Positions 2,928 through 21,682 of a stretch of DNA of 21,773 nucleotides are shown in pieces. The stretch is from a virus. Numbering within the stretch: position 1 is the first letter of the stretch; every line of letters begins with the position of its first letter. The position numbers and the translations under genes are program-made. The stretch lies in IMG/VR virus record IMGVR_UViG_3300008266_001107, positions 1 through 21,773 of that record; one strand, 5' to 3'. The notes under the pieces were generated by a model. It made no database searches and was not told the DNA's origin. It saw only the letters and a program-made list of their open reading frames with translations.

Positions 2928-3260
2928 TTAAACTATCTCAGAACCAAATGCTTGGAAAGTTAAATCTGCAGCAGATGCATATACTTGAATTGAATTTCCA
3001 GTAGCAAGCGTCAGGCCTAGAGTTAGTGCCGTAGTATCATTTGCTGGAATAGAAACATCATAAGCAATATAATGTTCATTTGCTAATGTTGTACCTGTTG
3101 TTGGTTTAATTGCAATACGATATGTTCTTGCTGATGCTGATCTATTACATACTGTAATTGTTGAAATTACAGCTGAAGTTGAAGATGGAACAGCATAGAG
3201 CTCTTCCATTGTAGTAGCAGCAGAAGCTTTTCTTCCTAGTACTTTATATGCTGTTGGCAT
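2928..3260 (-). CDS. Small beta-rich virion-associated protein (110 aa), paralogue of the 130 and 151 aa proteins
   Basis: The protein is short, rich in Thr, Ser and Ala, and predicted to be mainly beta strands. It contains STITVCNRS, ARTYRIAIKP, NEHYIAYDVS and GNSIQVYASAADLTFQAFGSE. The same pattern (a 'T..VCN/ANK' strand, a 'V..VP/IKP' strand, 'Y..YD', and 'G..VYVRA...SFSL.G') occurs in the proteins at 9302-9694 and 13807-14262, so the three are paralogues. Proteins of this type are seen beside tail-fibre genes in aquatic phages, but I know no defined function. The gene starts one base after the TGA of the 414-residue fibre, with GGAG inside that gene's last codons, so the two are translationally coupled. 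A role as fibre-associated cap or adaptor is a guess. Confidence 0.7.
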   Translation of the reverse strand: MPTAYKVLGRKASAATTMEELYAVPSSTSAVISTITVCNRSASARTYRIAIKPTTGTTLANEHYIAYDVSIPANDTTALTLGLTLATGNSIQVYASAADLTFQAFGSEIV

Positions 3261-18998: not shown

Positions 18999-19087
18999 TT
19001 TTAGATAAAGCTCCTTCTCCGCCTTGCGGTTAATAAATTTTTAGTGAGATACCAATTCTACCAAACTTTAATTAGCGTGGGAAGGGG

Positions 19088-20077
19088 TTATGAGAATTTT
19101 TTAAAAATATGATCAAAAGAATTCTTAGTCAACTTAATCCAATTGTATTCTTCATGTATTTTAGTTGACTGAGCATAATAGTATCCAGAATAAGCATTAA
19201 AATTAAAAGATACATCTCTCATAAGTTCAAGTAGATGTTGATAGTTTGGTTCAAATACTTTTCCAGGGTGGGCATGAGTCCATTCTGAATCTACCAATTC
19301 CGATCTTAATTTAAGCGGGCCAAGATAATCTGAATAATGTGCCCAATCATAAGTAGATATAACTGGCATGCCTGTTGCTAAAGCCTGAAGAGGTATAAAG
19401 CCAAATCCTTCTCCGTAGCTAGGATAAATTAAAACATCATGATCATGATAAAGCTTAACTAGTTGCTCATCTGTATATTCATCAAGAATGATCTTTACGT
19501 TATTATAAACTTCATTAGGTAATCCAATAATATTCTTTTCTATAAAGTTATTATATACACGAGTTGTATTTTGTTTATATGCTTTTATTGTTAATTGATA
19601 TTCTGGATTATTTCCAAATAAGAATCCGAATGCGTCAACCACCATTTGTCCCGCTTTTCTTGGAGCGGGTTCTCCAAGATGAAGGAACTTAATTACACCA
19701 TCATCTTTTCTTCGTTTTGGTTTCCAGATATCTTCTATTCCATGTGGATACACTTTAACATCTTTATATCCATTATCTTGAAATACATTTGCACACCAAT
19801 CAGATGTTGTCCATATCTCATCAACTAAAGATAGATTCATTCTCCAAACTTCTGGTATAACTGTAGATTCCCAAGGAGTGTAACTAATTTGATACTGATT
19901 ACGATGCATTTTAAAATGATTAGGCTGAGAAAAGTTTAATTGAACTGGAGCTTTAGGATATTGAAATGGGACTTCGTGGCCTAAACTTTGCAAAGATTTA
20001 ACTATATTATAGCCAGCATAACCATATCCATTAGAGGTTTTTAGGTTAACTCTTGGTGTTGAGAATGATATTTGCAT
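19088..20077 (-). CDS. Glycosyltransferase, GT4-like (GT-B fold), 329 aa
   Basis: The N-terminal half starts MQISFSTPRVNLKTSNGYGY, an opening strand and glycine-rich loop typical of GT-B enzymes. The C-terminal nucleotide-sugar domain shows FLHLGEPAPRKAGQ (Lys141), DVLIYPSYGEGFGFIPLQAL (Glu223 and Gln231, an E-x7-Q version of the GT4 E-x7-E motif) and ATGMPVISTYDWAHY. The donor and acceptor are unknown; phage enzymes of this type may modify virion proteins, DNA bases or host surface glycans. I chose the ATG at 20075-20077. A TTG at 20117-20119 would add 14 residues, but these come from the divergent lysis promoter region and do not look like the family. The ribosome site is weak (AGAAAA). The reductase gene follows after 89 nt in the same direction. 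Confidence 0.8.
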   Translation of the reverse strand: MQISFSTPRVNLKTSNGYGYAGYNIVKSLQSLGHEVPFQYPKAPVQLNFSQPNHFKMHRNQYQISYTPWESTVIPEVWRMNLSLVDEIWTTSDWCANVFQDNGYKDVKVYPHGIEDIWKPKRRKDDGVIKFLHLGEPAPRKAGQMVVDAFGFLFGNNPEYQLTIKAYKQNTTRVYNNFIEKNIIGLPNEVYNNVKIILDEYTDEQLVKLYHDHDVLIYPSYGEGFGFIPLQALATGMPVISTYDWAHYSDYLGPLKLRSELVDSEWTHAHPGKVFEPNYQHLLELMRDVSFNFNAYSGYYYAQSTKIHEEYNWIKLTKNSFDHIFKKFS

Positions 20078-20098
20078 ATTTTTTTCTGGTTGACCGAC

Positions 20099-20128
20099 TT
20101 GACAGTAATTTACTGACAATGCTATTAT
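20099..20128 (+). promoter_or_regulatory. Consensus promoter with palindromic operator for the lysis genes
   Basis: TTGACA (20099-20104), an 18-nt spacer and TATTAT (20123-20128) with TGC in front form one of the best promoters in the window. Inside the spacer lies the perfect palindrome CAGTAATTTACTG (20103-20115; six bases each side of a central T). A bound repressor there would block polymerase. On the opposite strand a TATAAT (20129-20124) overlaps the -10 and might serve the divergent glycosyltransferase, but its -35 spacing is poor. Confidence 0.65.
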
Positions 20129-20163
20129 ATAAGTTCGTTATCTCTTCAAAGGAGGAAATGCCA

Positions 20164-20736
20164 ATGGAGAATATAAAACAGCGATTGAGTGATGTTGCTC
20201 ATAACTGGACCGCTATAGGAATGATAACATTATTTCTATTTGGTGTCCAGCCTGAAACATTACCAGCCGCAAAAGCTCTTCTGGTTGAACAAGCAATTGT
20301 TAAATCTGAAGATACAAAAACAGAAGCACAACTGAAAAAAGAAACGCTGGAAAAATTCAGCAATACTGTATACAAAGCATCTGAGTCTTTAACAGACAAA
20401 GAATTGGTACAGCTTCTCAAGGCCGTAGGCTTTGAGGGCAAAGGCCTTAGAATGGCTTGGGCCGTAGCTAAGAAGGAGTCTAACGGACGCCCATTAGCGT
20501 ATAACGGAAACAGGAATACTGGAGACAGTTCCTACGGAATTTTTCAGATCAATATGCTGGGAAACCTTGGTGTAGATCGTAAAGAAAAATTCGACCTGGA
20601 TAGTAACTACACGTTATTTGATCCAGTAATTAACGCAGAGATAACGTATCATATGACACAGGGCGGCGCAGACTGGTCATCTTGGAAGGGTTTAACTCCA
20701 GCCACAAAAGTGTGGTTAGAAAAATTCCCTAATTAG
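20164..20736 (+). CDS. Membrane-anchored lytic transglycosylase / lysozyme-like endolysin (190 aa)
   Basis: The C-terminal 105 residues match the lysozyme-like SLT fold. Helix AWAVAKKESNG carries the likely catalytic Glu105, followed by PLAYNGNRNTGDSSYGIFQI (the classic ES.....SYGIFQIN signature) and MTQGGADWSSWKGL near the end. It should cleave the glycan backbone of peptidoglycan. Residues about 15-28 (WTAIGMITLFLFGV) form a single membrane or signal-anchor segment, and residues 45-85 look helical. This start has AGGAGG with an 8-nt spacer (20050-20055). An ATG six bases earlier is too close to that site, and farther upstream starts would run through the promoter. It is the first gene of the rightward transcript. 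It may be the host-lysis enzyme or a virion-associated one; the membrane anchor favours a SAR- or signal-anchored endolysin. Confidence 0.8.
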   Translation: MENIKQRLSDVAHNWTAIGMITLFLFGVQPETLPAAKALLVEQAIVKSEDTKTEAQLKKETLEKFSNTVYKASESLTDKELVQLLKAVGFEGKGLRMAWAVAKKESNGRPLAYNGNRNTGDSSYGIFQINMLGNLGVDRKEKFDLDSNYTLFDPVINAEITYHMTQGGADWSSWKGLTPATKVWLEKFPN

Positions 20737-20954: not shown

Positions 20955-21045
20955 CCCAATTAAAACCGACGGCGGGGAAATTAAAGAAACAGACGCCATG
21001 GGTAGAGAAAAATTTTGGGAAGATCTAGGAAGACCAAATGACTGA
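20917..21045 (+). CDS. Small acidic hypothetical protein (42 aa) overlapping both neighbours
   Basis: This short frame starts with ATG at 20917, inside the end of the preceding gene (38-nt overlap). It ends with TGA at 21043-21045, overlapping the start of the next gene by 8 nt. Without it the stretch 20955-21037 would be empty, which argues that it is real. The protein (MNNSENKLKDLTDPIKTDGG ... TDAMGREKFWEDLGRPND) is hydrophilic. Its C-terminal MGREKFWEDLGRPN has a tryptophan and an amphipathic character, like short peptides that dock on a partner. No strong ribosome site is visible, so translation by reinitiation from the upstream gene is likely. Function is unknown. Confidence 0.6.
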   Translation: MNNSENKLKDLTDPIKTDGGEIKETDAMGREKFWEDLGRPND

Positions 21046-21250
21046 AGAACAAAAATCAGAAAATCTAGAAGATAACCTAGAGATGGTTAATTATATTATG
21101 CTGCATAGAATATATGACCTTTTAACATTAATTTCAAATAAACTTGTTGGCCCAGAAGATACGGCAAAAATGGTTGCATATCATGACCAAGGATATCTAT
21201 TAGGACCATCCCCTTCATATACCCCAGATAATTCTCAAGAAAACAGTTGA
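21038..21250 (+). CDS. Small hypothetical phage protein (70 aa)
   Basis: The ATG overlaps the end of the 42-residue gene, and AGGAAG lies 5 nt upstream. The first 20 residues are acidic (EEQKSENLEDNLEM). A predicted helix follows (VNYIMLHRIYDLLTLISNKL), then a conserved-looking patch (KMVAYHDQGYLLGPSPSY) with several aromatic residues and a short polar tail. There is no membrane segment or catalytic motif. I do not recognise a family with known function. Its place at the end of the lysis-gene transcript, just before a new promoter at 21247, marks the end of this operon. Confidence 0.65.
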   Translation: MTEEQKSENLEDNLEMVNYIMLHRIYDLLTLISNKLVGPEDTAKMVAYHDQGYLLGPSPSYTPDNSQENS

Positions 21251-21275
21251 CTTAAAAAAAACATTGTGTGATACT
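21247..21275 (+). promoter_or_regulatory. Promoter for a short structured RNA
   Basis: TTGACT (21247-21252), a 17-nt spacer and GATACT (21270-21275), preceded by TGT as a TGn extension, form a good sigma70-type promoter. It overlaps the stop codon of the 70 aa gene (TGA at 21248-21250). Start is predicted near 21282, just before the paired ACGGG. Confidence 0.6.
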
Positions 21276-21281
21276 TAGTAT

Positions 21282-21375
21282 TGTACGGGTTGTAGCATCC
21301 CACCAACTTTTGCTCCCCGTGCTTACGCTTCGGCGTAGCAAGACCCAATCGGATCCGCCTCTGATTGGGTTTTGT
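21282..21375 (+). ncRNA. Predicted small structured RNA (about 95 nt) with its own promoter and terminator
   Basis: There is no convincing reading frame on this strand here. The predicted transcript contains three elements in order. ACGGG (21285-21289) can pair with CCCGT (21316-21320); TTG/CAA extends the helix. A second hairpin (21321-21339) has TACGC and GCGTA closed by a TTCG tetraloop, one of the most stable RNA loops. The third is an 8-bp intrinsic terminator. Promoter, compact folding and terminator together fit an independent small RNA rather than a leader, because the terminator precedes the next gene's own promoter. The family is not recognised: it is not a tRNA (no T-loop consensus) and has no known riboswitch core that I can see. 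Confidence 0.55.
21343..21375 (+). terminator. Intrinsic terminator of the small RNA
   Basis: ACCCAATC (21343-21350) pairs perfectly with GATTGGGT (21363-21370) around a 12-nt loop, followed by TTTGTCCTTT. It ends the predicted small RNA and separates the lysis operon from the structural gene at 21401. The opposite strand lacks a U-run at the right place, so it acts rightward. Confidence 0.65.
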
Positions 21376-21388
21376 CCTTTATAGGCGG

Positions 21389-21394
21389 TATAAT
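21389..21394 (+). promoter_or_regulatory. -10 element for a probably leaderless transcript
   Basis: TATAAT at 21389-21394 ends 6 nt before the ATG at 21401. The usual distance from -10 to start places the first transcribed base on or next to the A of that ATG. The -35 (TTGGGT, 18-nt spacer, inside the terminator stem) is weak. The context GGCGGTATAATAAGA resembles the holin-operon promoter. Confidence 0.55.
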
Positions 21395-21400
21395 AAGAGG

Positions 21401-21682
21401 ATGCAGACAAGACATAAGATAGTAACTCTATCAACATCAGCACCTACGGCTTTAACATACGAGGATAATGTTCAATCTAGCTATACGTTAGTAATTCAAA
21501 ACAATAATGATTCTGGATATGTTTATATAGGGTCTTCAAGTGTTTCAACATCATCCTACGGATATAAACTATTTCCTGGGCAAGGGCTGACGGTAGAGCT
21601 TTCTGCTTTTAATAGACTGTATGCAGTCTGTTCAACAAATACTATGACTGTATCTCTATTGGTGATAGAACGTGCCATTTAA
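21401..21682 (+). CDS. Small beta-rich structural protein (93 aa)
   Basis: The chosen ATG at 21401 lies directly after TATAATAAGAGG; an upstream in-frame ATG at 21365 would start inside the terminator stem and precede the promoter. The protein reads as alternating beta strands: HKIVTLSTSAPTALTYED, SSYTLVIQNNNDSGYVYIG, SSYGYKLFPGQGLTVELS and LYAVCSTNTMTVSLLVIERA. This is a common pattern in small phage virion proteins such as decoration, stopper-associated or fibre-associated beta-sandwich proteins. I cannot assign the exact role. It shares the 'valued strand, VYIG/VYVRA, SVSL' style with the small proteins of the leftward block but without clear alignment. The next gene overlaps its last codons. 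Confidence 0.7.
   Translation: MQTRHKIVTLSTSAPTALTYEDNVQSSYTLVIQNNNDSGYVYIGSSSVSTSSYGYKLFPGQGLTVELSAFNRLYAVCSTNTMTVSLLVIERAI

Follow-up and report, generated by a model that had tools for sequence, protein, structure and literature searches.

The 21.8-kb IMG/VR contig analyzed here (21,773 nucleotides; hereafter, the window) very probably encodes a genuine small RNA (sRNA) gene, with a predicted transcript of about 95 nt, and comparative sequence analysis indicates that more than 100 related actinobacterial viruses carry this gene at the equivalent genome position. The sRNA, which is previously unnamed, is probably a viral RNA switch: its first hairpin is predicted to pair with the mRNA of the phage's own WhiB operon, a reading to which we assign a probability of roughly 0.57.

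The sRNA gene and its genomic setting

The gene spans positions 21247-21377 of the plus strand, on which all its elements are located. It opens with an extended -10 promoter (TTGACT-17-TGTGATACT; 21247..21275), read from the sequence and the promoter scan, in which a 17-nt spacer separates the -35 element TTGACT (21247-21252) from the TG-extended -10 element GATACT (21270-21275); the promoter scan listed this site with 9 of 12. The RNA itself (21282..21377) is predicted to start at about 21281-21283, given the spacing to the -10 element, and to end in the T tract at about 21373-21380. Hairpin 1 (21283..21322) combines an outer helix, GUACGGG (21283-21289) with CCCGUGC (21316-21322), and an inner helix, AGCA (21294-21297) with UGCU (21311-21314), capped by the loop UCCCACCAACUUU, and includes the near-invariant segment GUAGCAUCCCAC (21292..21303), which we propose to be the seed that recognizes the WhiB-operon mRNA at its 5' end; the complement of this segment is found at the whiB-operon promoter of relatives. 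Hairpin 2 (21324..21337) reads UACGC-UUCG-GCGUA. Hairpin 3 (21339..21377), identified by sequence, fold and covariation, is a Rho-independent terminator in which 21339-21352 pairs with 21361-21374, followed by TTTTGTCCTTT, and the loop carries the invariant element AUCCGCCU (21353..21360). The first-pass annotation of this DNA had recognized a promoter, a helix ACGGG/CCCGT, a TTCG-capped hairpin and an intrinsic terminator packed within about 130 nt, and all of these can be read in the gene, the helix being contained in the longer outer stem of hairpin 1.

The minimum free energy of the segment 21282-21377 is -43.5 kcal/mol, compared to -23.8 ± 3.6 kcal/mol for 200 dinucleotide shuffles, none of which was as low (z -5.5). 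The terminator at 21339-21377 is clear in the fold and in the alignment although it is absent from the list produced by a simple terminator scan, probably because the stem runs into the T tract. The initial description of the RNA as unrecognized agrees with the search of the 4227 Rfam families, which yielded no match at the gathering thresholds and, up to an E-value of 10, only sub-threshold matches, the best of these being ctRNA_pGA1 (20.8 bits against a gathering score of 45). No tRNA or tmRNA was detected within the window, and we found no account of this RNA in the open-access papers searched.

The plus strand also encodes, upstream of the sRNA, an SLT-type endolysin (20053-20736) and several small ORFs, one of which is a 70-aa ORF of the phrog_12271 type (21038..21250). 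The gene downstream (21401..21682, plus strand), which has an unknown function and the start motif GGCGGTATAATAAGAGG-ATG, is separate from the sRNA and is replaced by other genes in relatives. The placement of the RNA at a lysis/structure boundary, as originally suggested, is loosely correct: the endolysin gene precedes it on the same strand, but the virion and tail genes of the window are located on the minus strand.

Several other features of this region were observed. The recurring motif (A/G)GCGGTATAATAAGAG-ATG opens the downstream gene in the window (21381-21403) and in many other loci, with TATAAT located about 6-9 nt before the ATG; it could serve as a leader element or, alternatively, as a late promoter for genes that are nearly leaderless. 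The endolysin ORF is listed from a TTG at 20053; its probable true start is an ATG near 20158-20164, which follows AAAGGAGG, and a strong promoter-like site, TTGACA-18-TATTAT, is located ahead of this codon (20099-20128). The ribonucleotide reductase (RNR) gene is preceded by a conserved leader hairpin, CCGCAAGGCGG (window 19006-19031, minus strand), which one relative (G058, locus L332) retains with a different sequence.

Homologs, covariation and invariant loops

No near match to the window was detected among 50,697 phage records, and there was no DNA match in the phage collection for the window, its flank or five concatenated variants of the RNA, nor any match to the RNA variants in the plasmid collection. 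The homologs come from IMG/VR contigs and comprise 193 placements with 100 distinct sequences; a pattern built on both conserved loops matched at least 119 contigs. Many loci were thus selected via patterns that contain the invariant loops, and the loci selected by protein, together with the diverged sRNAs, are less biased in this respect. The search with the neighboring ORF yielded 80 loci, 74 of which contain the terminator-loop motif; the remaining 6 are contigs that end shortly downstream and, in the cases that we read, before the RNA does.

Covariance model R1, which assigns 108.6 bits to the window RNA (21281-21384), detected one RNA per locus in 100 of 100 loci (plus two antisense echoes), and the sRNA is single copy in each of 21 sRNA-bearing records. 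A phrog_12271-like ORF is encoded on the same strand within 1.8 kb upstream in 87 of the 88 loci with sufficient flank. The -35 element is conserved in related phages as TTGAC[T/A/G] in 106 distinct homologs (97 TTGACT, 7 TTGACA and 2 TTGACG), in a tally that required TTGAC; the 5 other matches were all chance hits within coding regions. Downstream of the RNA, the neighborhoods differ. In 34 of the 105 distinct loci, tRNA genes are present within 500 nt, every one on the opposite strand, and the loci L004 and L005 are near-identical to the window through the terminator and unrelated beyond it, where they contain a different gene. With respect to these two loci, the segment 21378-21400 of the window marks a point of recombination or gene exchange immediately behind the sRNA. 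The single copy, the same upstream ORF and the independence from the downstream gene argue for a free-standing sRNA gene, as the first-pass annotation had proposed; its own predicted promoter and terminator, the exchangeable downstream side and the opposite-strand tRNA genes are all consistent with this interpretation.

The WhiB protein was identified by HMM search in 9 of the 21 sRNA-bearing records and, WhiB being an actinobacterial marker, the hosts of these phages are most likely actinobacteria. The largest related contigs are about 103-120 kb long. The phage group is apparently a freshwater one, given the source metagenomes, which we take to be mostly freshwater. The RNA pattern had no match in a collection of genomes from 84,980 species, indicating that prophages and hosts in that collection do not commonly carry it. 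In the Streptomyces BE-type phage LukeCage, the phrog_12271 gene is present and the sRNA was not found (best E-value of 0.5).

The proposed secondary structure is strongly supported by the comparison of the homologs, on which paired covariation had been proposed as a check. In the alignment of 96 distinct sequences fitted to the covariance model, 97.0% of the cells are paired (85.8 ± 0.4% in shuffles), and double-sided changes occur in 276 cells (91 ± 6 in shuffles, with none of the 500 shuffles as high), with 16 of the 27 pairs showing changes on both sides. The covariation score is 0.376, compared to at most 0.056 for slid structures, for which the paired fraction drops to 30-46%. An unfitted MAFFT alignment of 24 sequences agrees (95.5% paired, 14 pairs, 0 of 500 shuffles). 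The outer helix of hairpin 1 is paired in 99.6% of the cells, with both-side changes in all 7 pairs, and hairpin 2, where the stem is kept and the sequence is free, shows from 7 to 43 double-sided changes per pair across the 96 sequences and is usually capped by one of the tetraloops UUCG, GCAA, GUAA or UUAG. The frequent G-U pairs (for example, 33 of 96 at the basal pair) fix the strand because, on the opposite strand, they would become A-C mismatches. The length of the RNA varies from 98 to 108 nt by single-base steps that break the frame, which shows that it is non-coding and rules out a coding sequence on the plus strand.

What the first-pass annotation had missed is that the invariant sequence resides in the loops rather than in the helices. 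The two near-invariant loop sequences are GCAUCCCA in hairpin 1 and AUCCGCCU in the terminator hairpin; the latter octamer is the most conserved part of the RNA and survives complete replacement of the stem (in G075, G076 and G090).

The WhiB operon as the candidate target, and competing readings

When the 103.7-kb relative G001 was scanned for complements of the loops, GTGGGATGCTAC was found just past a TATAAT, upstream of a small ORF that is followed by whiB; by an arithmetic estimate, about 0.01 occurrences of an exact 12-mer are expected by chance in this genome. In all nine WhiB-bearing relatives examined first, which were chosen solely for having both the sRNA and WhiB, GGGATGCTRYGGTT directly follows the TATAAT of the operon promoter, and the predicted 5' end of the operon mRNA is (A)GUGGGAUGCURCGGUU. 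The mRNA start predicted from the -10 spacing falls at GGGATG or a few nucleotides before it, and the start codon is located 12-19 nt past the leader motif in nearly all cases. A pattern scan for the leader returned 78 loci, 76 of which are this whiB-operon promoter; two chance matches to the target occur without the sRNA. Among the large contigs, the sRNA is present in 5 of 5 that were selected by the target (90 kb or longer), the target site is present in 4 of 4 that were selected by the sRNA (85 kb or longer), and the two thus occur together in all 9 of these contigs. Conversely, six relatives in which hairpin 1 of the sRNA lacks UCCCAC (G083, G081, G090, G079, G082 and G076) lack the site as well; this joint presence and absence may represent a single clade-level event. 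The sRNA gene and the whiB operon are widely separated in the genome (in G001, at about 27.7 kb and 3.2 kb, respectively).

The predicted sRNA-target interaction energy (ddG) is better than that for composition-shuffled targets in 18 of the 19 same-genome pairs (z from -1.8 to -5.2, and -0.1 for the remaining pair). In genome-wide duplex scans, the site ranks first among the non-self matches of two genomes (G003 and G057), second in one (G058) and third in another (G001); its rank is about sixth in G055, and the matches listed for G002 do not include it, so that energy alone does not single it out. The full duplex requires partial opening of hairpin 1. Between CGGUU of the site and GGUYG of the sRNA, pairing is retained through wobble rather than through sequence identity; the G006 variant of the sRNA, GACGCAUCCCAC, has two mismatches beside a 9-bp core. 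Within the clade, there is hardly any sequence variation in either loop 1 or the target, and no compensatory change between sRNA and target was found in the records with variant loops (L011, L021, L038, L081 and L085), none of which are contigs carrying WhiB.

Under the mechanism that we propose, transcription from a host-type promoter to the RNA's own terminator would produce the three-hairpin RNA of about 95 nt, which would act in trans by base pairing via its C-rich apical loops, presumably without the need for an Hfq-type chaperone. Its first target would be the mRNA of the phage operon that consists of the ORF of 75-77 codons (phrog_10869) and whiB. Over about 12-16 contiguous nucleotides, with Watson-Crick and G-U pairs, the hairpin-1 segment 5'-GGUYGUAGCAUCCCAC-3' would pair in the cell with the extreme 5' end of this mRNA, 5'-(A)GUGGGAUGCURCGGUU-3', a stretch that ends 12-19 nt ahead of the start codon. 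Such a duplex would lie inside the 30S footprint and would down-regulate the WhiB operon through a translation block and/or decay; given this position within the initiation footprint, we consider repression somewhat more likely than protection of the mRNA 5' end.

An alternative that we regard as possible, if doubtful, is that the main seed is the AUCCGCCU loop of the terminator, which would tune replication genes by pairing with AGGCGGA(U) at ribosome-binding sites or at phage mRNA 5' ends. The candidate targets, equally tentative, include the DnaE-like polymerase, the class II RNR, small early ORFs and the WhiB operon of class-B relatives, and such a function could coexist with that of hairpin 1. 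The persistence of the octamer on replaced stems is compatible with this possibility, as is the excess of AGGCGG upstream of starts in sRNA-bearing genomes (38 observed vs 7.7 expected, 4.9-fold, compared to 1.7-fold for AGGTGG); furthermore, all 11 of the sRNA-bearing genomes examined have GGCGG[A/U] at the start of the DnaE-like gene, and the class-B whiB leaders start with AUAGGCGGAAC. However, AGGCGGA also occurs at these DnaE and RNR sites in G086, a genome without the sRNA, AGGCGG differs by only one base from the normal Shine-Dalgarno sequence, the copies ahead of the genes for a 68-aa protein and a helicase are partly coding, and the RNR copy sits in the leader hairpin that G058 retains with a different sequence. 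By duplex energy, no single conserved target site of the terminator loop was found in the phage genomes.

The DNA-level explanation, the chief rival of the hairpin-1 pairing on account of an inverted repeat at the whiB promoter, is that hairpin 1 and the whiB leader match because both contain a shared operator (CCGYAGCATCCC-like) of one phage repressor, with the sRNA having another role; we consider this rather unlikely. The repeat, GCCGYAG...CTRCGG, flanks the -10 element of the whiB promoter in nearly all relatives, and G001 additionally contains GTAGCAT upstream of the -10. Its upstream half, however, lacks GGGATG/CATCCC, so that the repeat accounts for the conservation only in part; the flanks differ (GGTY in the sRNA gene vs AACC in the operator) by transitions that preserve pairing, and GTAGCATCCCAC of the sRNA gene sits within a covarying RNA hairpin. 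As a separate observation, the inverted repeat at G001 3165-3240 and at 75 similar loci (L227-L304) shows loosely matching changes in both halves, and it is possible that this repeat is the operator of a phage repressor or of WhiB itself.

That the RNA has two independent seeds, with hairpin 1 directed at the operon of the WhiB-type regulator and the AUCCGCCU terminator loop directed at AGGCGGA-led replication mRNAs, appears unlikely. If true, such an sRNA would be a chaperone-free RNA hub setting the early program of the phage, and existing relatives would make it possible to trace how it emerged, step by step, from a plain operon terminator.

Invariant loops on variable stems, the pattern observed here, are typical of protein-binding hairpins, and the loops could accordingly form a binding site in a protein-binding or structural RNA, such as a polymerase-binding RNA, a packaged RNA or a sponge that titrates an RNA-binding protein or nuclease of the host. 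This role seems improbable: there is no likeness to the known protein-binding RNAs in Rfam, and a protein-binding role does not predict the repeated occurrence of the loop-1 complement at the conserved 5' end of a phage mRNA. Finally, it is highly improbable that the locus is a cis-acting attenuator or merely the conserved terminator of the lysis operon, even with only a terminator containing the AUCCGCCU loop (G076) or a plain terminator (G085 and G086) in the slot of some relatives, because in the window's clade the RNA has its own promoter and two additional hairpins that covary, a plain terminator does not need an invariant loop, and the RNA does not occupy a fixed place upstream of the same regulated gene on the same strand, the downstream side being different in L004 and L005 and occupied by opposite-strand tRNA genes in many other loci.

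Diverged relatives and comparison with known systems

A wider search with the first ORF of the operon (phrog_10869) reached more distant phages. The operon leaders fall into classes, and GGGATGCTRCGG is present in only one of these. The sRNAs of six phages outside class A all lack UCCCAC in hairpin 1 and all contain the AUCCGCCU terminator loop; G075 adds a seventh diverged sRNA, with a wholly different terminator stem and an identical loop. In the slot of the sRNA, G085 and G086 have an ordinary terminator, CCCC-AGAAAU-GGGG, and no promoter; G076 has a terminator with the AUCCGCCU loop and no clear promoter; G075, G079, G082 and G083 have a promoter and a short hairpin; and the window's clade has three hairpins. 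Read most simply, this series suggests that the lysis-side operon's terminator gave rise to the sRNA, in an order of steps that we infer.

Two other kinds of leaders were observed. Seven loci (L355, L369, L378, L384, L396, L404 and L421) have a whiB-operon leader with AGGCGG(A) near the presumed 5' end, in place of GGGAUGC, and this AGGCGG(A) is complementary to the terminator loop of the sRNA. The class-C whiB leaders in L344, L345, L346, L349, L360, L365 and L391 contain a different conserved sequence, AUAGGUUCAAA...UUGGAC; no loop complementary to the class-C leader AUAGGUUCAAA was found in the sRNAs of the respective phages.

It is rare for a phage sRNA to have a conserved family as well as a candidate target and an evolutionary series, and nearly all of the phage sRNAs studied come from phages of Hfq-bearing gammaproteobacteria. 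The sRNA described here is present in very many phages of actinobacteria, hosts that are not known to encode Hfq. It yields a testable claim on the control by phages of a WhiB regulator, along with apparent intermediates between a bare terminator and a three-hairpin sRNA driven by its own promoter, and provides a simple marker and a covariance model for the annotation of these phages.

Functionally, the closest resemblance in the actinobacterial setting is to the 6C (B11) sRNA, which is about 93 nt long and binds mRNAs through C-rich loops, reportedly without a known chaperone (PMC8628891, tracing this work to Mai et al. 2019, PMC6486639). The two RNAs are similar in length and in having stem-loops with C-rich loops (UCCCACC and AUCCGCCU in the phage RNA); this likeness is one of function only: 6C is a host chromosomal gene, whereas the phage RNA has three hairpins, one of which is the terminator, and other loop sequences, and did not match the 6C covariance model up to an E-value of 10. 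The sRNAs PreS of phage lambda and VpdS of phage VP882 are of the same broad kind, namely, phage-encoded, trans-acting RNAs of about 50-90 nt that function in lytic growth (PMC12197685). They are, however, Hfq-dependent and come from temperate gammaproteobacterial phages, with host dnaN being the target of PreS (PMC12197685), whereas the proposed target of the window sRNA is the phage's own WhiB operon, and its family is present in very many phages. The antisense RNAs sar (P22), c4 (P1/P7) and OOP (lambda) are likewise small phage RNAs that base pair with phage mRNAs, but they act on nearby or overlapping transcripts (PMC12197685), unlike the window-type sRNA, which is encoded far from the whiB operon. 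The CfrI, wcaG, manA and glnA RNAs of cyanophages are also structured RNAs conserved in aquatic phages, but are antisense or cis-regulatory (PMC9964418, PMC12197685) and their covariance models do not match the window sRNA. With sRNAs derived from 3' UTRs, such as SdhX (PMC6393394), the phage RNA shares the terminator hairpin as its most conserved part, as if it arose from the 3' end of an operon (G076), but differs from them in having its own promoter.
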